DNA of 27,154 bases from a virus, in the IMG/VR virus record IMGVR_UViG_3300010354_000506, positions 1 to 27,154 of that record; one strand, written 5' to 3'. Position numbers and translations under genes: made by a program. Positions 17,040 through 23,264 of the stretch are shown piece by piece (the stretch's first letter is position 1; each line of letters opens with the position of its first letter). The notes under the pieces were generated by a model. That model was not told the origin of the DNA. It saw only the letters and a program-made list of their open reading frames with translations, and did not search any database.

Positions 17040-17068
17040 AGTATACAATATTTTTACCCGCTTGTCAA
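17040..17068 (-). promoter_or_regulatory. sigma70-type promoter for the 47-aa gene
   Basis: TTGACA (17063-17068), a 17-bp spacer and TATACT (17040-17045) give a near-perfect host sigma70 promoter on the minus strand. The -35 lies inside the 3' end of the PAAR gene and the PAAR stop falls in the spacer. Confidence 0.85.
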
Positions 17069-17362
17069 GACATCTCCAGATGAACTTGAAATAGATCCAG
17101 CATCTGCAGAATCCCCATATCTTGCAATGGGTCTGCCATTAACAAGAACCCTTCCATAACCTGCATTGACCTGCGCTGAGTGTGAAATGCATGGTGGTAT
17201 TGGAACAGAATTCGTAATTGTGTGGGGTGCTAACGCAGCACCTGCATAAGCCGCCCCTCTTCCGTTGATACGAACGTTGGGAGACCCCTGCTGTATCGTT
17301 GTCGTGGTATCACAACCATGCCCAGTTATTACATTATCGCCTTGTCTTGCAATTCCTGGCAT
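17054..17362 (-). CDS. PAAR-motif baseplate spike tip protein
   Basis: A 102-aa protein of PAAR type: MPGIARQGDNVITGHGC at the start, then SPNVRINGRGAAYAGA, PHTITNSVPIPPCIS with HSAQVNAG, and VLVNGRPIARYGDSADAGS at the end. PAAR proteins form the sharp zinc-binding cone at the tip of the central spike; T4 gp5.4 is the counterpart. Candidate metal ligands visible are H15, H47 and H61, with C17 and C58. The ATG overlaps the stop of the upstream 83-aa gene by one base (TAATG). No late promoter of its own was seen. Confidence 0.9.
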   Translation of the reverse strand: MPGIARQGDNVITGHGCDTTTTIQQGSPNVRINGRGAAYAGAALAPHTITNSVPIPPCISHSAQVNAGYGRVLVNGRPIARYGDSADAGSISSSSGDVLTSG

Positions 17363-18951: not shown

Positions 18952-19137
18952 TCAGGCGCTGGCGAGCGAGCGGCGGAATTGCTTCTCAATGTTCGCCAGT
19001 GCTCGGTGGTCGCTGAGGGTGCTGCCCGTCGTGACGACTGCCCCGCTAGGGTGCTGCCATACACGGTGGCGCTTGTGCCGCACCTCGATAAATCCAAACT
19101 TCGCAGCGATGGGGGCGATGGTGTCGCGTCGTGCCAT
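18952..19137 (-). CDS. HicA-like small protein, 61 aa
   Basis: A 61-aa basic protein, MARRDTIAPIAAKFGFIEVR at the start. The layout (helix, GFxxVR, KRHRVWQHPSGAVVTTGS, SDHRALANIEKQFRRSL) follows the HicA fold: a strand pair with a central His, then HP.G..V.., then a helix beginning with SDHR. HicA proteins are dsRNA-binding mRNA interferases; phage-borne solo forms of this type are common and are not proven toxins. Here the usual G-S-H catalytic triplet is replaced by K-R-H (H24). No HicB-like partner lies next to it. It starts 3 bp after the 64-aa gene, forming a two-gene operon under unit 19362-19420. Confidence 0.6.
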   Translation of the reverse strand: MARRDTIAPIAAKFGFIEVRHKRHRVWQHPSGAVVTTGSTLSDHRALANIEKQFRRSLASA

Positions 19138-19140
19138 GAG

Positions 19141-19335
19141 TCAGTCCTCGTGGGTGAACAGGGGCAGGGCGGCGATCGCTTCATCATGCCAGACCTCAGC
19201 GAACTGCCCCGCGATGGCGTAGGCGCTGATGCCCAGTTGTGGTTGCAGGCGTGACCCCATAGGAGAGTCGTCGTTGCACCGCCCCGTCCATACGATGCGA
19301 CGGGTGGCGAGGTCGGTTGACTGAGAGAGGATCAT
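19141..19335 (-). CDS. hypothetical protein, 64 aa
   Basis: Start chosen at the ATG at 19335 (MILSQSTDLATRRIVWTGRC), because the shared CGACCC leader ends directly at it; the longer frame would run through the promoter. It contains RIVWTGRC and QLGISAYAIAGQFAEVWHDEAIAAL. No family recognised. First gene of a pair with the HicA-like gene, whose ATG lies 3 bp beyond its stop. Confidence 0.6.
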   Translation of the reverse strand: MILSQSTDLATRRIVWTGRCNDDSPMGSRLQPQLGISAYAIAGQFAEVWHDEAIAALPLFTHED

Positions 19336-19361
19336 GGGTCGGTGTCGTGTGATCTGAGAGA

Positions 19362-19420
19362 AGTCTACAGGGGGGTGGCGCTCACCAGCGCCCCTCAGTG
19401 TCACTTGCCCAACCGTCACG
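19362..19420 (-). promoter_or_regulatory. dyad-promoter unit for the 64-aa/HicA-like pair
   Basis: Dyad half-sites CGTGACG and TGACACT (19397-19420), then 29 bp, then -10 TAGACT (19362-19367). No -35. The dyad lies inside the 3' end of the upstream 53-aa gene, whose stop falls in the 29-bp spacer. Confidence 0.68.
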
Positions 19421-19543
19421 CATGGCACGGCGGCGGTCGATCTCATCGGCGTCGAAGCGGTCGTCGAAGTCGAAGCGGTCGAAGTCGAAGATCTCGCCAG
19501 GGGCGTCTTGGATCTCAGAGAAGCAGGTGTCGAAGTCAGTCAT
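19382..19543 (-). CDS. acidic hypothetical protein, 53 aa
   Basis: Start set at the ATG at 19543 (MTDFDTCFSEIQDAPGEIF), preceded by the CGACCC leader. Residues 21-38 are an Asp/Phe repeat (FDFDRFDFDDRFDADEID), then RRRAMRDGW. The repeat arises from tandem TCGAAG-like DNA units. Function unknown; the acidity could suggest a DNA mimic or a partner-binding peptide, but nothing in the sequence proves this. Confidence 0.55.
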   Translation of the reverse strand: MTDFDTCFSEIQDAPGEIFDFDRFDFDDRFDADEIDRRRAMRDGWASDTEGRW

Positions 19544-19566
19544 GGGTCGTTTCGTTTGATGAGTCA

Positions 19567-19625
19567 ATTCTACAGGGTCGGGCGCTCAGCGGCACTCGGT
19601 TTGGGACACTTCGCACATCGTCACA
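19567..19625 (-). promoter_or_regulatory. dyad-promoter unit for the 53-aa gene
   Basis: Half-sites TGTGACG and TGTCCCA (19602-19625), then 29 bp, then -10 TAGAAT (19567-19572). The dyad is within the coding 3' end of the upstream 49-aa gene, whose TGA is in the spacer. Confidence 0.65.
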
Positions 19626-19735
19626 GCGAGGCGGTCGGCGTGTGCCTTGGTGATCTGCAGACCAGCGGACAGGGCGTTGCCACCAACCCAGAGGGTGATG
19701 CCGAGCATGGTCAGGGGGAGGATGAGGCGGGTCAT
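19586..19735 (-). CDS. small protein with hydrophobic N-terminus, 49 aa
   Basis: ATG at 19735 follows the shared leader ending CGACCC. The protein starts MTRLILPLTMLGITLWVGG, a hydrophobic stretch that could be a signal peptide (NALSAG follows) or a membrane anchor. The C-terminal part is polar, with Cys residues at about 41 and 48. Function unknown. The presence of the common leader and dyad unit supports it as a real gene despite its size. Confidence 0.55.
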   Translation of the reverse strand: MTRLILPLTMLGITLWVGGNALSAGLQITKAHADRLAVTMCEVSQTECR

Positions 19736-19759
19736 GGGTCGTTTCGTTTCGATGTGATC

Positions 19760-19818
19760 AGTCTAGACGCTGAAGGTCTCGTGACGCTGCAGGAGTGTGC
19801 GGTTCACCCACTGTCCCA
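19760..19818 (-). promoter_or_regulatory. dyad-promoter unit for the 49-aa gene
   Basis: Half-sites TGGGACA and CGCACAC (19795-19818), 29 bp, then -10 TAGACT (19760-19765). This is the most degenerate dyad of the set. The stop codon TAG of the upstream 81-aa gene is the first half of the -10. Confidence 0.55.
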
Positions 19819-20008
19819 CGCTGCCGTTGCGATCGATCATCAGGCGCACCATGTCACGGCGGCGGCAGTGGTGACCAGACACGCTGCCCGAGTGCCACTG
19901 CACAATGGCGGCACGGGTGAGAGGCGACAGGATGACACGCTGACAGGCAGTGCTAGGGCGCTCCACGTTGATGAACACGGGCAGGTGGTTCAGAGCGAAG
20001 TCGATCAT
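19763..20008 (-). CDS. hypothetical protein, 81 aa
   Basis: Start at the ATG at 20008 (MIDFALNHLPVFINVERPST) at the end of the shared leader. Mixed alpha/beta look, basic in the middle (HHCRRRDMVRLMIDRNGS) and with a final LLQRHETFSV. No family recognised. Its 3' end carries the dyad and part of the -10 of the next unit, so regulatory and coding sequence overlap. Confidence 0.6.
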   Translation of the reverse strand: MIDFALNHLPVFINVERPSTACQRVILSPLTRAAIVQWHSGSVSGHHCRRRDMVRLMIDRNGSVGQWVNRTLLQRHETFSV

Positions 20009-20030
20009 GGTTCGTTTGGTTGACTCTGTT

Positions 20031-20090
20031 AGTATAGGGGCAGGCGATGCAGGAAAGGGGGCAGCGTGTGCCACCCCCTCGACTGTCCTA
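20031..20090 (-). promoter_or_regulatory. dyad-promoter unit for the 81-aa gene
   Basis: Half-sites TAGGACA and TGGCACA (20067-20090), 30 bp, -10 TATACT (20031-20036), then the full AACAGAGTCAACCAAAC leader. The TAG stop of the ArdA-like gene is the first triplet of the dyad. Confidence 0.72.
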
Positions 20091-20513
20091 GTAGTCGCTG
20101 AAGATGGCGACCTGAGCGTATTTCACTTCACAAGAGGTGAAATCGTAGCGAAGCGAAGTATCCCACGTCGCTTGCCAATCTACAACCAGAGCGGTGGGAA
20201 CTTCGTAGAGTTCGCTGTAGTATTCCTCTGCGAAGTCTGCTTCGCTTTGATACCAACCACGAAAGCGAGAATCGCAGTCCTCGATGTTATCAATGCCGTT
20301 CTCGTCAGCATAGGCATCGACTGCATCGTATCCGATTGCTTCACCACAACGGACGTACTCTTCGTAGTTATCGACGAACATACGCTCGTTATAGTTATCG
20401 ATGAATTCCAGCATGTCATCGAGAGCGTAATTCTCTTCGATCAGTTCATCGATCTTCTCGACAGTGTTAGCATCGAGAACTTCTTTGTAGTTAGCAGTCA
20501 AGGTCACGGTCAT
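20088..20513 (-). CDS. ArdA-like antirestriction protein, 141 aa
   Basis: An acidic 141-aa protein. Residues 83-125 (RFRGWYQSEADFAEEY, VPTALVVDWQATWDTSLRYDF) match the C-terminal ArdA pattern: a YxGxxxSxxDFAxE helix, then a DYxAxxxDLxYDx segment. ArdA proteins mimic B-form DNA and block type I restriction enzymes, and cyanophages often carry ArdA-like genes. Residues 16-60 are helical and acidic. It is shorter than plasmid ArdA (about 165 aa). An antirestriction job early in infection would fit its host-type promoter with dyad. The fold assignment is by motif only. Confidence 0.7.
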   Translation of the reverse strand: MTVTLTANYKEVLDANTVEKIDELIEENYALDDMLEFIDNYNERMFVDNYEEYVRCGEAIGYDAVDAYADENGIDNIEDCDSRFRGWYQSEADFAEEYYSELYEVPTALVVDWQATWDTSLRYDFTSCEVKYAQVAIFSDY

Positions 20514-20535
20514 GGGTTGTTTGGTTGACTCTGTT

Positions 20536-20595
20536 AGTATAGGGGGTCGGGTGGGGGTCTGTGGCGCCCCCTGTGCCAGTTCTCAGAGTGTCACA
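20536..20595 (-). promoter_or_regulatory. dyad-promoter unit for the ArdA-like gene
   Basis: Half-sites TGTGACA and TGGCACA (20572-20595), 30 bp, -10 TATACT (20536-20541), then AACAGAGTCAACCAAAC and the ATG. No -35. The TGA stop of the upstream 54-aa gene lies in the first half-site. Confidence 0.75.
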
Positions 20596-20755
20596 TGCCG
20601 TTGAGGAAGTCGGCAAGCGCCTCTTTATACTCTGCCTCGGTGGCAAAGGTGCGACCGTGGATAGTACGGGGGTACTCATGCTTAGGGGCAGGAGTGGTGG
20701 GCAGATCACGACCCTTGTCGAGGATCTGCTGAGCGTAGGGGTTGTTTGTTTTCAT
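20591..20755 (-). CDS. hypothetical protein, 54 aa, possibly leaderless
   Basis: A 54-aa protein, MKTNNPYAQQILDKGRDL at the start and FATEAEYKEALADFLNGM at the end, with a central HEYPRTIHGRTF. The ATG lies only 6 bp after the -10 TAGACT, so transcription should start at or next to the A of ATG, giving a leaderless or nearly leaderless mRNA. No family recognised. The regular dyad unit upstream and the stop embedded in the next dyad support it. Confidence 0.62.
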   Translation of the reverse strand: MKTNNPYAQQILDKGRDLPTTPAPKHEYPRTIHGRTFATEAEYKEALADFLNGM

Positions 20756-20761
20756 GCTGTT

Positions 20762-20820
20762 AGTCTACAGGGTCAAAGGGCGGATGCGAGGGGGCGTGTG
20801 CCACCTTGCCGACTGTCACC
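20762..20820 (-). promoter_or_regulatory. dyad-promoter unit for the 54-aa gene
   Basis: Half-sites GGTGACA and TGGCACA (20797-20820), 29 bp, -10 TAGACT (20762-20767). The TGA stop of the 82-aa gene lies in the first half-site. The leader is missing: ATG follows 6 bp later. Confidence 0.73.
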
Positions 20821-21064
20821 CTCCACCGTACACATACTCTACGATGCCTGCCTCATCAAGTCCCACCGATTCGATGACAGTAACCTTAGCATTGTTGAAC
20901 TCTTTTTGCACTTGTTCATCCCTCACACGTTCACCATTACAATCAGTGAAATACCCAAACTTCTCCATAAAGATCTGTTCACACTGAGGCATAGATTCTG
21001 CTGCGATGATTGCCATGCCATCGGTATAATCGTAGAGAACTTCTTTGAGAATGTAGAGTTTCAT
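20816..21064 (-). CDS. conserved small phage protein, 82 aa
   Basis: An 82-aa protein starting MKLYILKEVLYDYTDGMAII, with AAESMPQCEQIFMEKFGYF, then DGE-type turn and VTVIESVGLDEAGIVEYVYGGG. The pattern of an initial strand, helix, and closing strands looks like a compact alpha/beta fold. I believe similar proteins occur in cyanophages and other large phages, without known function. The ATG follows the AACAGCAAACAACCA leader. Confidence 0.68.
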   Translation of the reverse strand: MKLYILKEVLYDYTDGMAIIAAESMPQCEQIFMEKFGYFTDCNGERVRDEQVQKEFNNAKVTVIESVGLDEAGIVEYVYGGG

Positions 21065-21085
21065 TGGTTGTTTGCTGTTGAGATC

Positions 21086-21144
21086 AGTCTACAGGGTCAG
21101 GGGCAGGATCGGTGGTGGCCGCGGCCACCTTGCCGACTGTCACA
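21086..21144 (-). promoter_or_regulatory. dyad-promoter unit for the 82-aa gene
   Basis: Half-sites TGTGACA and TGGCCGC (21121-21144), 29 bp, -10 TAGACT (21086-21091). The second half-site is altered by a perfect 16-bp palindrome GGTGGCCGCGGCCACC (21114-21129). The TGA of the upstream 61-aa gene is in the first half-site. Confidence 0.68.
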
Positions 21145-21325
21145 TCACGTAGATGCCATACTGCTGATAGTGGGCAGGGTAGTTCTGACGCCAGTTGGCA
21201 AGGCGAGCGATCAGGGTAGCGTCGTCGGCATCGTGGTGCAGTTTCACCAACCAATCGGGGCAGGTGCCATGCTCGGCGGTGAACATCATCAGCAGGGAGG
21301 AGATGACGCGGGAGCGGTTGATCAT
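21140..21325 (-). CDS. hypothetical protein, 61 aa
   Basis: A 61-aa protein, MINRSRVISSLLMMFTAEHG at the start, with CPDWLVKLHHDADDATLIARLANWRQNYP and a Tyr-rich end (HYQQYGIYVM). It looks helical. No family recognised. It has its own dyad unit and leader. Confidence 0.62.
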   Translation of the reverse strand: MINRSRVISSLLMMFTAEHGTCPDWLVKLHHDADDATLIARLANWRQNYPAHYQQYGIYVM

Positions 21326-21348
21326 GGGTCGTTTGCTTTGACTCTGTT

Positions 21349-21407
21349 AGTATGGCATCGGATGGGGGGCAGCGGGGCGATTGGTGGACACTTGCCCAAC
21401 TGGCACA
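21349..21407 (-). promoter_or_regulatory. dyad-promoter unit for the 61-aa gene
   Basis: Half-sites TGTGCCA and TGTCCAC (21384-21407), 29 bp, -10 CATACT (21349-21354), then AACAGAGTCAAAGCAAAC. The dyad is intergenic here. A GCCGCGGCC stretch abuts it. Confidence 0.7.
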
Positions 21408-21425
21408 GCCGCGGCCGAAAGTTTG

Positions 21426-21620
21426 TTATACTAAGACGTGACGATAATCAATCGATTTGATACACCAACCAGTTGCACATGTGATCTCTTCAACTAAATC
21501 ATCTTCATCATCTGCTTCCCAAATGTGACCAATCGTGTCGTCTAAAATGTCATTTTTCTCTTCATCATGCAGGTCATCATCGAAATCAAACTCGATGGAA
21601 GTAACTTGGAATTGCATCAT
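21426..21620 (-). CDS. conserved acidic small phage protein, 64 aa
   Basis: A 64-aa acidic protein (MMQFQVTSIEFDFDDD, then TIGHIWEADDEDDLVEEITCATGWCIKSIDYRHVLV). The IWEADDEDDLVEEIT and TGWCIKSIDYR segments look like a conserved cyanophage family of unknown function. GGAGG is just upstream. The ATG overlaps the TGA of the preceding gene by one base (TGATG). Last gene of a three-gene operon begun at 21938. Confidence 0.7.
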   Translation of the reverse strand: MMQFQVTSIEFDFDDDLHDEEKNDILDDTIGHIWEADDEDDLVEEITCATGWCIKSIDYRHVLV

Positions 21621-21793
21621 CAATCCTCCAACAGTTCGGGATAGTATTGATTCACTTCTTCAGTCAATTCTTCATCTGAATACTTATCGTAACCCTCCAT
21701 CAAATAATCATAACAAAGGCAGGTCATTGTCTTAAGGTCCATGTCATCCAGCATTTGCTGAACCATTTGATCTTGCAATTCAGAACGATTCAT
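21620..21793 (-). CDS. conserved small phage protein, 57 aa
   Basis: A 57-aa protein starting MNRSELQDQMVQQMLDDMDL and ending SDEELTEEVNQYYPELLED. The DDMDLKTM...YDYLMEGYDKYSDEELTEEVxxYYPELLED pattern resembles small helical proteins found widely in phages; function unknown. It starts 1 bp after the stop of the 47-aa gene and overlaps the start of the 64-aa gene. Confidence 0.7.
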   Translation of the reverse strand: MNRSELQDQMVQQMLDDMDLKTMTCLCYDYLMEGYDKYSDEELTEEVNQYYPELLED

Positions 21794-21794
21794 G

Positions 21795-21938
21795 TCAGGC
21801 AACCTCATCACGAAGTTCGGTCAGGATGTCATGCAGTTCGGCAACATTAGCACCGACGATCTCACTCACCTCATCCCAATCATCGTGGAACTCAATCAGT
21901 GACAGCAGGGCATCTACCTGCTCAAAGGTTAATTGCAT
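21795..21938 (-). CDS. small acidic helical protein, 47 aa
   Basis: A 47-aa protein starting MQLTFEQVDALLSLIEFHDD and ending ELHDILTELRDEVA, probably two helices. It is the first gene of the 47/57/64-aa operon. It has a long (about 135 bp) leader from the unit at 22081-22139. No family recognised. Confidence 0.62.
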   Translation of the reverse strand: MQLTFEQVDALLSLIEFHDDWDEVSEIVGANVAELHDILTELRDEVA

Positions 21939-22080
21939 GGTTGAAAGTGTAAAGGGGTGAGGGTGCCCCTAGTTCCCTCATTCTAGCAGTGGTGCTAGTT
22001 CCTGGAGCAAGTGAAGGGATCTTCACTAGGACCTATCCCGAGAGCGGGTGGTTTCGCTAGGAGGGTTCGCTTCTGTAGTA

Positions 22081-22139
22081 AGTATAGGGGCAGGCGGCGC
22101 CAAATCTACGGGGCGTGTGCCAGTTTCCAAAGTGGCACA
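22081..22139 (-). promoter_or_regulatory. dyad-promoter unit for the 47/57/64-aa operon
   Basis: Half-sites TGTGCCA and TGGCACA (22116-22139) make the most symmetric dyad of the set (inner CTTT/AAAC also near-symmetric). 29 bp then -10 TATACT (22081-22086). The dyad is not in or next to a gene end. Confidence 0.74.
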
Positions 22140-22239
22140 GAATGCCCGTCAGGGCGCTGCCGATGCCTTAGAATATTGGCACAAGCGAAGGAGGGGCGGG
22201 GTAGCCCTGATGATGCCAACGGTCGCCACGCCCCCTGCC

Positions 22240-22257
22240 TTGAAATAATTATTTCAA
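22240..22257. repeat. 18-bp perfect palindrome
   Basis: TTGAAATAATTATTTCAA is a perfect inverted repeat in an otherwise GC-rich stretch. It could be a protein-binding site; no gene start lies within 100 bp. Confidence 0.4.
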
Positions 22258-22264
22258 TTGGTTA

Positions 22265-22290
22265 CAAAAAAGGGGCATCGCTGCCCCTGT
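22265..22290 (-). terminator. rho-independent terminator after the 42-aa gene
   Basis: On the minus strand AGGGGCA-GCGA-TGCCCCT is followed by TTTTTT. It begins 5 bp after the TAA of the 42-aa gene. Strong and canonical. Confidence 0.88.
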
Positions 22291-22293
22291 ATG

Positions 22294-22422
22294 TTAGAAA
22301 TCGTATTCTTCTTCGATTACATTTTCCAGAGCATAATCATCAACGATTAAACTCTCACCATCCAGGAAGATATCTGCGATCTCCTGATCAACAATCTCCT
22401 GATACATTTCAGCAGTAGTCAT
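22294..22422 (-). CDS. small acidic protein, 42 aa
   Basis: A 42-aa acidic protein, MTTAEMYQEIVDQEIADIF at the start and ENVIEEDYDF at the end. GGAGGA lies about 7 bp upstream of the ATG at 22422, a real Shine-Dalgarno, unlike its neighbours; an in-frame ATG 15 bp upstream overlaps that site and is less likely. A canonical terminator follows. Only a weak -10 (TATATA at 22447-22452) is seen and no dyad. Function unknown; its high Asp/Glu content is notable. Confidence 0.7.
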   Translation of the reverse strand: MTTAEMYQEIVDQEIADIFLDGESLIVDDYALENVIEEEYDF

Positions 22423-22464
22423 CGAGAATTCCTCCATTGTTGTTTGTATATAGGGGGGCAATTG

Positions 22465-22779
22465 TCAGTTCAGACGCATACCCGAGAAGAAAGGTACGGT
22501 CTCTCCATTAACACTGATGAACCACTCACCTTTCTTTTGAAAGATACGCTCACCAGGACAACCATGCTCACTCAGAATAGCATTCAGGCGAGACTTCGTG
22601 GTGACAGTTTGCCAACCACCATCAAACAGGCGAATCCAATTGTCACCAATCTGGGCAATATTGTTGCCGTGAAGGAATACGAAACTCACACCATCTTGGT
22701 TGCTCACCATAGTGTTGTCGAGTTGCCAATCACGCTCGTTGGTGATAGCATCGTTCATCAGGCGTTCGATCTTACGCAT
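22465..22779 (-). CDS. conserved phage protein, 104 aa
   Basis: A 104-aa protein starting MRKIERLMNDAITNERDWQL. Residues 22-62 contain NTMVSNQDGVSFVFLHGNNIAQIGDNWIRLFDGGWQTVTTKSRLNAIL, a pattern (VxLHGNxIAxI, then GWxTxTTxSRLNAxL) I associate with small proteins spread among unrelated phages, function unknown. The C-terminal half has FQKKGEWFISVNGETVPFFSGM. It has a unit with both the dyad and a -35 box. Confidence 0.75.
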   Translation of the reverse strand: MRKIERLMNDAITNERDWQLDNTMVSNQDGVSFVFLHGNNIAQIGDNWIRLFDGGWQTVTTKSRLNAILSEHGCPGERIFQKKGEWFISVNGETVPFFSGMRLN

Positions 22780-22803
22780 TGGTCTCGTTTGGTTGACTCT
22801 GTT

Positions 22804-22862
22804 AGTATGGACGGGATCGGGGCAAAAGTCAAGTGGTCTGTGCCACTTTCTGAACTGTCACA
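22804..22862 (-). promoter_or_regulatory. dyad-promoter unit with -35 for the 104-aa gene
   Basis: Half-sites TGTGACA and TGGCACA (22839-22862), 29 bp, -10 CATACT (22804-22809). This unit also has a -35 TTGACT at 22827-22832 with a 17-bp spacer. The TGA of the upstream 77-aa gene is in the first half-site. Confidence 0.78.
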
Positions 22863-23091
22863 CGGCAGCGATATCGGCATCCTCCAGATGGTAGTATACC
22901 TGTTCTGCTGATTTGTTAACAAACATCAGAACTTTGCAGGCATTGTTGATCATAACTTGTTTGCCGCCATTCTTATACCAATTGGCCGCGGCGGTATAGG
23001 TGAACTTAACAACACCCACCACGATAGCAGCAATGGTGGCAATGTTGAAGATCAGAGTGTTAACGAAAGATTTCACGAAAGTGTTGTTCAT
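22858..23091 (-). CDS. small membrane protein, 77 aa
   Basis: Start at the ATG at 23091 (MNNTFVKSFVNTLIFNIATIAAIVVGVV), because the longer frame would cross the promoter. Residues 8-30 form one transmembrane helix. The rest is a soluble tail (KNGGKQVMINNACKVLMFVN, then ending LEDADIAAV). Possibly an inner-membrane protein acting on the host early; no family recognised. It is the first gene of the island. Confidence 0.65.
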   Translation of the reverse strand: MNNTFVKSFVNTLIFNIATIAAIVVGVVKFTYTAAANWYKNGGKQVMINNACKVLMFVNKSAEQVYYHLEDADIAAV

Positions 23092-23116
23092 TGGGTCAAA
23101 TTTGTTTGACTCTGTA

Positions 23117-23145
23117 AGTATTGCACCGATCAAGGCAAAAGTCAA
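23117..23145 (-). promoter_or_regulatory. sigma70-type promoter for the membrane protein gene
   Basis: TTGACT (23140-23145), 17-bp spacer, AATACT (23117-23122), then TACAGAGTCAAACAAAT, close to the island leader. The sequence from -35 to leader is near-identical to the unit at 22804-22832, but no dyad is present. Confidence 0.8.
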
Positions 23146-23198
23146 CCCCCCTAACGATCACCAAAACTTATGGGTCTCATCAGGGGGGCTTATGGTTG

Positions 23199-23264
23199 AG
23201 TTTTCCACAGGGTTGTGGAAAACTATTGAAAGTTTTCCACAGGTTTTAGTATTTCTGTGGAAAA
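23199..23264. repeat. four TTTTCCACA boxes in two inverted pairs
   Basis: TTTTCCACA at 23201-23209 and 23233-23241, with reverse complements at 23214-23222 and 23256-23264. The first pair has a 4-bp loop; the second has a 12-bp stem (AGTTTTCCACAG) and a 14-base loop region. TTTTCCACA is the DnaA box of cyanobacterial chromosomes. The second pair lies right after the stop of the 54-aa gene, so a 3'-end hairpin role is the main alternative. After the GC part come A residues rather than T, which argues against an intrinsic terminator. Confidence 0.6.

Follow-up and report, generated by a model that had tools for sequence, protein, structure and literature searches.

An upstream dyad with fixed promoter spacing repeated before small genes of an uncultured cyanophage and across T4-like phages of picocyanobacteria

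The uncultured virus recorded in IMG/VR as IMGVR_UViG_3300010354_000506 was analysed here over a stretch of 27,154 bp (positions 1 to 27,154 of the record, hereafter the window), a virus fragment with T4-like baseplate genes as its structural genes. Its nearest named relatives by DNA comparison are Kyanoviridae Synechococcus myophages such as S-SZBM1, S-CREM1 and S-CAM22. The window carries an array of ten minus-strand small-gene promoters, each with a 24-base near-palindrome (the dyad) 29-30 bases upstream of the promoter core. This element is real, and it occurs throughout the T4-like phages of picocyanobacteria and not in the host genomes scanned. We put at roughly even odds (about 0.5) the full reading that the dyad binds a dimeric activator aiding RNA polymerase at early promoters with a poor -35. 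Few marine viruses are as abundant as the T4-like cyanophages, and the element bears on how they start transcription without the factors of T4. Moreover, its base-defined site, its fixed geometry, its absence from hosts and its natural replacement in the phage S-SM2 offer handles for finding the protein that would switch on the early genes.

Anatomy of the repeated unit

An earlier note, made from the letters of the window, had placed ten dyads on the minus strand, followed by a gap of 29 bp (eight units) or 30 bp (two units) and a -10 hexamer, and all of them were confirmed, with the 30-bp gap in units 20067 and 20572. Three lines of evidence exclude chance. A strict dyad pattern in the code of the International Union of Pure and Applied Chemistry, with up to two mismatches, has seven matches in the window against 1.3 expected, a count reached by none of 100 shuffles. 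A composite scan of the window (dyad, spacing and -10) gives zero matches in simulated sequence. Finally, an external matrix built with 25 dyads of other phages, none of them from the window, finds nine sites scoring at least 8 within 19000-23200, each of them a reported dyad; simulated sequence gives 0.15 such sites and never more than two over 300 runs. Nine of the ten dyads are within the ten best sites of this matrix in the window, with the one at 19795 as the exception.

The units share a common order: end of the upstream gene, dyad, gap, -10 hexamer, predicted transcription start site (TSS) 7 nt further and start codon, the latter usually 15-20 nt after the predicted TSS (units 20797 and 22116 are the exceptions). 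In half of them (5/10) the stop codon of the upstream gene falls inside the dyad. The consensus of the 24-bp site is TGTGMCAsTT-N4-AAsTGKCACA, and its centre lies 53.5 or 54.5 bp before the predicted TSS, in agreement with the position near -54, at a fixed distance from the -10, that had been proposed; the site spans from -66 to -43. The same spacing recurs among 181 non-redundant IMG/VR sites picked by the dyad alone, which have a strict -10 at an offset of 28-31 in 105 cases against 8.4 expected from shuffled sequence, with 66 hexamers at 29, 34 at 30 and almost none elsewhere. In the 131 units having a -10, a purine (87%) followed by a T (83%) is found 7-8 nt past the hexamer, as would be expected from a transcription start. 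As for the gap, originally regarded as conserved in length and not in sequence, its length is indeed constant, but the 131 units also keep a TTG at gap positions 8-10 across phages, strong where the gap is 30 bp and weak where it is 29 bp, at a constant distance of 7 bp from the dyad edge. Most units of the window were described as lacking a -35, which was borne out: among the eight dyad promoters scored, a good one exists at 22839 only (TTGACT, 17-bp spacer), and the dyad-free window promoters at 17045, 23813 and 26974 show a perfect TTGACA.

A close-up view of the site indicates that it is more than the imperfect palindrome initially suggested: in most strict sites, positions 8 and 17 carry G/G or C/C and not a complementary pair. 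These two positions are non-complementary in 109 of the 131 units (Fisher's test p ~4e-16, uncorrected for the kinship of the sequences), and there is no linkage between the bases at positions 5 and 20, which argues for recognition as DNA and not as an RNA stem. When positions 8 and 17 were left free in the scan, 153 of 214 sites were G/G or C/C, and eight of the ten window dyads obey the same rule. The rule is strong in strict metagenomic sites; among named phages, it is weak (40 of 72 sites with G or C at both positions) and S-CRM01 favours a complementary pair; consequently, unequal halves are not claimed as a general property of the element.

Distribution among phages and hosts, and a replacement element in S-SM2

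The earlier note had made its proposal depend on the conservation of the dyads in relatives. At least eight named T4-like cyanophages and about a hundred metagenomic units share both dyad and spacing, and a strict-dyad scan of IMG/VR recovers at least 120 stretches. Whole phage records were scanned with the window's own matrix, using simulated sequence as the control, and this search of other cyanophages, also suggested in the note, gave 5-29 composite matches in eight named phages against 0-2 in the control: S-PM2 with 29 (control, 2), S-CRM01 with 26 (0), P-SSM2 with 20 (1), S-SZBM1 with 14 (0), P-HM2 with 13 (2), Syn9 with 11 (2), S-CAM22 with 8 (1) and S-CREM1 with 5 (0). Two more phages gave 10 (0) in S-TIM5, which has a diverged form with a shifted half-site (GGCCCA), and 3 (0) in S-SM2. 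The dyad with its linked -10 is present in Syn9, S-PM2, P-SSM2, P-HM2, S-CRM01, S-CAM22 and S-SZBM1. Upstream of orthologs of the Kyano_Gp96 gene of the window (48-67% protein identity), S-PM2 and Syn9 retain a dyad with an equally spaced -10, and S-SZBM1 has a degenerate version; there, the ortholog (82% identical) of the gene under the dyad at 21384 is also preceded by a degenerate dyad and a -10.

The T4, P-SSP7 and Ma-LMM01 records show one chance-like match each, the Pelagibacter phage HTVC008M stays at chance level (one composite match against one simulated), and the strict site is not beyond chance in either the Synechococcus phage S-SM2 or the Prochlorococcus podovirus P-SSP7. A search of 84,980 prokaryote genomes for the strict dyad gave 44 matches, none of them in a genome titled marine Synechococcus or Prochlorococcus. 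In 300 host-family genomes the composite has two matches against about five expected, by our own estimate for random sequence of even composition. Of the 44 matches, the one noted to have a -10 at 29 looks like a cyanophage contig binned with Flavobacteriales; three contigs of this metagenome bin carry many dyads, most likely through cyanophage contamination. One Pyrinomonadaceae genome has six loci with TGTGACA-type palindromes, on different contigs and with the phage promoter context absent.

S-SM2 (NC_015279) shows, in the region ~42694-57145, eight places with the sequence GGGGTCGCnTAAAGnGTCCC, most of them followed by a -10-like TATAGT, and several copies lie directly upstream of orthologs of the small genes of the window. 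The same sequence is present in 18 IMG/VR stretches, one of which is probably S-SM2 itself. Since S-SM2 is poor in dyads and carries the GGGGTCGCnTAAAGnGTCCC element instead, the group has swapped its probable early element at least once. A different observation concerns five other loci with close-set, dyad-like copies of TGTGACACTTTCTAAACTGGCACA, often ~57 bp apart. A TTGACA separates the copies, no -10 follows at 29 bp, and this is apparently another kind of element.

A putative activator and its alternatives

We propose that in each unit an operator lies upstream of a promoter. The 24-bp site would be bound by a dimeric protein, at a fixed distance and just upstream of the would-be -35 contact. 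This protein would help RNA polymerase to initiate from a good -10 that has a poor -35 or none. That the element is shared by a set of small genes, as already pointed out, holds across the ten units of the window, and sites repeated before so many short genes could allow a single protein to turn on the whole set, most likely early in infection, considering the anti-restriction gene and the other small genes involved. Genes of P-HM2 have been sorted into early, middle and late classes, according to PMC5082946.

This reading is backed by the site itself with its -10 at fixed spacing, by the conserved start context, by the conservation among phages and by the absence from hosts beyond chance, and several points weigh against it. 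Activation and early timing are argued from analogy and earlier work. In the phages taken together, the -35 of dyad promoters is no poorer than that of other candidate promoters (mean match of 3.0/6 against 2.6/6), so the idea that the dyad replaces or aids the -35 fits the window and is not general. Moreover, no gene family of the compared phages follows the presence or absence of the site, nor is it tracked by any family that dyad phages have and S-SM2 lacks. A small helix-turn-helix (HTH)-like protein (phrog_1308) fails as a candidate reader, as it is encoded in the dyad-poor S-SM2 and missing from the dyad-bearing P-HM2 and S-TIM5.

Two other candidates were rejected: a basic protein of 47 amino acids (aa) (phrog_516), present in S-SM2 and, in a diverged version, in HTVC008M, and the Ogr_Delta zinc-finger protein, whose family (PF04606) is found in 0/10 cyanophage records. 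Syn9 57929-58090 and its homologs encode an HTH-like protein of 50-75 aa conserved in eight cyanomyophages. The window itself encodes a further candidate that was rejected, a small MazE/AbrB-like protein (PF04014; 17832-18029, minus strand), near a gene for a PAAR-motif protein (17054-17362), with a homolog in S-SZBM1 only among the phages compared.

Whether the reader comes from the host or from the phage was left undecided in the earlier note. If the phages had captured a transcription factor of the host, with the dyad as its activator site, this would agree with the need for early transcription to begin before any phage protein exists and with a site tracked by no phage gene. The strict dyad, however, has no match titled marine Synechococcus or Prochlorococcus, the composite stays at chance level in the host-family genomes, P-SSP7 and S-SM2 lack the strict site beyond chance and the half-site of S-TIM5 is shifted, all of which make a host factor rather unlikely. 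S-TIM5 was recorded from the host strain WH 8102, a strain that Syn9 infects as well. Given the 300 host-family genomes and the shifted half-site of S-TIM5, the question leans to the phage, and a phage-encoded reader delivered with the virion is slightly favoured over a host protein. A more specific version of the activator reading is tentative at best: an activator particular to this phage family, perhaps carried in the virion and not yet linked to transcription control, would read unequal halves (CAGTT / CACTT) at -54 of early genes in phages of both marine and freshwater hosts.

A less probable explanation is that the dyad works as a shut-off operator, through which an early phage protein would repress these promoters as the middle genes take over. 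Such an operator would produce an identical anatomy, with many small early genes silenced together, and some units in other phages do carry a full -35. Nevertheless, the interval from -66 to -43 lies upstream of the main polymerase contacts, an uncommon location for a simple repressor. Given their poor -35, most window units would also be weak without help. Still more doubtful is that the units resemble the promoter/stem-loop cassettes (PeSL) of T4-type phages, which are the subject of Arbiol 2010 and Comeau 2014 (both cited in PMC4503421), and would mainly insulate small genes and allow their recombinational exchange. Dyads that abut or contain the upstream stop codon are consistent with this idea, and so are some units of other phages with a terminator hairpin and T-run inside the gap (6 of 131). 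The gaps fold slightly more strongly than shuffled sequence (-5.1 against -3.6 kcal/mol). On the other hand, units with a terminator are few, and the dyad is too conserved for a mere stem, which its mismatch at positions 8 and 17 also opposes. Finally, an RNA hairpin acting in processing or termination of the upstream transcript is disfavoured and very improbable, since fairly stable folds of some dyad-plus-gap stretches of the window are set against non-complementary positions 8 and 17 and independently varying positions 5 and 20.

The ten units and known systems

Along the minus strand of the window, the first dyad (19397..19420; external matrix score, 9.7) precedes a -10 TAGACT (19362-19367), a predicted TSS at 19355 and a 64-aa gene (19141-19335, start at 19335). 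The second (19602..19625; score 13.0) has its -10 TAGAAT at 19567-19572 and its predicted TSS at 19560, before the gene 19382-19543 (start at 19543). The third (19795..19818) is the weakest one and does not reach the top 16 of the external matrix; with a -10 TAGACT (19760-19765), a predicted TSS at 19753 and the gene 19586-19735 (start at 19735), this unit is degenerate and supported mainly by its position. Both units with the longer gap have a -10 TATACT and an upstream stop inside the dyad. The fourth dyad (20067..20090; -10 at 20031-20036, predicted TSS at 20024; score 16.9), containing a TAG, precedes the gene 19763-20008 (start at 20008), and the fifth (20572..20595; -10 at 20536-20541, predicted TSS at 20529; score 30.2), containing a TGA, precedes an ArdA-like anti-restriction gene (20088-20513).

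The sixth and seventh dyads also contain an upstream TGA stop and are followed by a -10 TAGACT. In the sixth (20797..20820; -10 at 20762-20767; score 19.9; gene 20591-20755), the predicted TSS at 20755 coincides with the A of the start ATG, and a leaderless mRNA is possible; the seventh (21121..21144; -10 at 21086-21091; score 9.6) has its predicted TSS at 21079 and the gene 20816-21064. The eighth (21384..21407; score 12.7) has a -10 CATACT (21349-21354), a predicted TSS at 21342 and the gene 21140-21325. The ninth (22116..22139; score 31.0), with a -10 TATACT (22081-22086) and a predicted TSS at 22074, is followed by an untranslated 136-nt leader (21939-22074) with predicted stems, for which an Rfam search gave no match, and then by the small genes 21795-21938, 21620-21811 and 21426-21623. 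The tenth (22839..22862; score 32.1), with an upstream TGA stop inside, combines the -35 mentioned above with a -10 CATACT (22804-22809), a predicted TSS at 22797 and the Kyano_Gp96 gene (22465-22779).

Some features of these units recall other regulatory systems. The dyad ends in the TGTG/CACA half-sites of CRP and SyCRP1, but the CRP consensus is TGTGA-N6-TCACA, whereas the conserved halves of the dyad are 10 bp long and its centre spans 10 bp instead of 6, a spacing that, as originally pointed out, is not of the CRP type and excludes this protein. A closer geometry is found in the sites of the P2 Ogr and P4 Delta activators, dyads near -55, without a -35 and common to a set of phage late promoters. 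The window dyads are likewise centred near -55, mostly lack a -35 and are common to a promoter set. However, P2 sites are TGT-N12-ACA and those of cyanophages TGT-N18-ACA, P2 promoters are late and, as seen before, the family is missing from the ten cyanophage records; thus, the Ogr family does not fit despite the Ogr-like geometry. With the PeSL cassettes the units share short promoter repeats between small genes of a variable region, but their constant part is a dyad resembling a protein site, and terminators occur in few units.

The dyad motif was not found in the literature searched. Doron et al. (2016, ISME J 10:1437) reportedly describe in Syn9 a novel regulatory element for early genes, one that abounds in T4-like cyanophages and is conserved among them. 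Syn9 itself carries dyad units, among them those at about 44.8, 47.2, 48.6, 49.1, 51.0 and 53.0 kb. It is very likely, by comparison with that description, that both elements are the same. The array, which the earlier note did not know to have been described, has an element common to the group, and it would probably add to a known element a new case, densely repeated in an uncultured phage.

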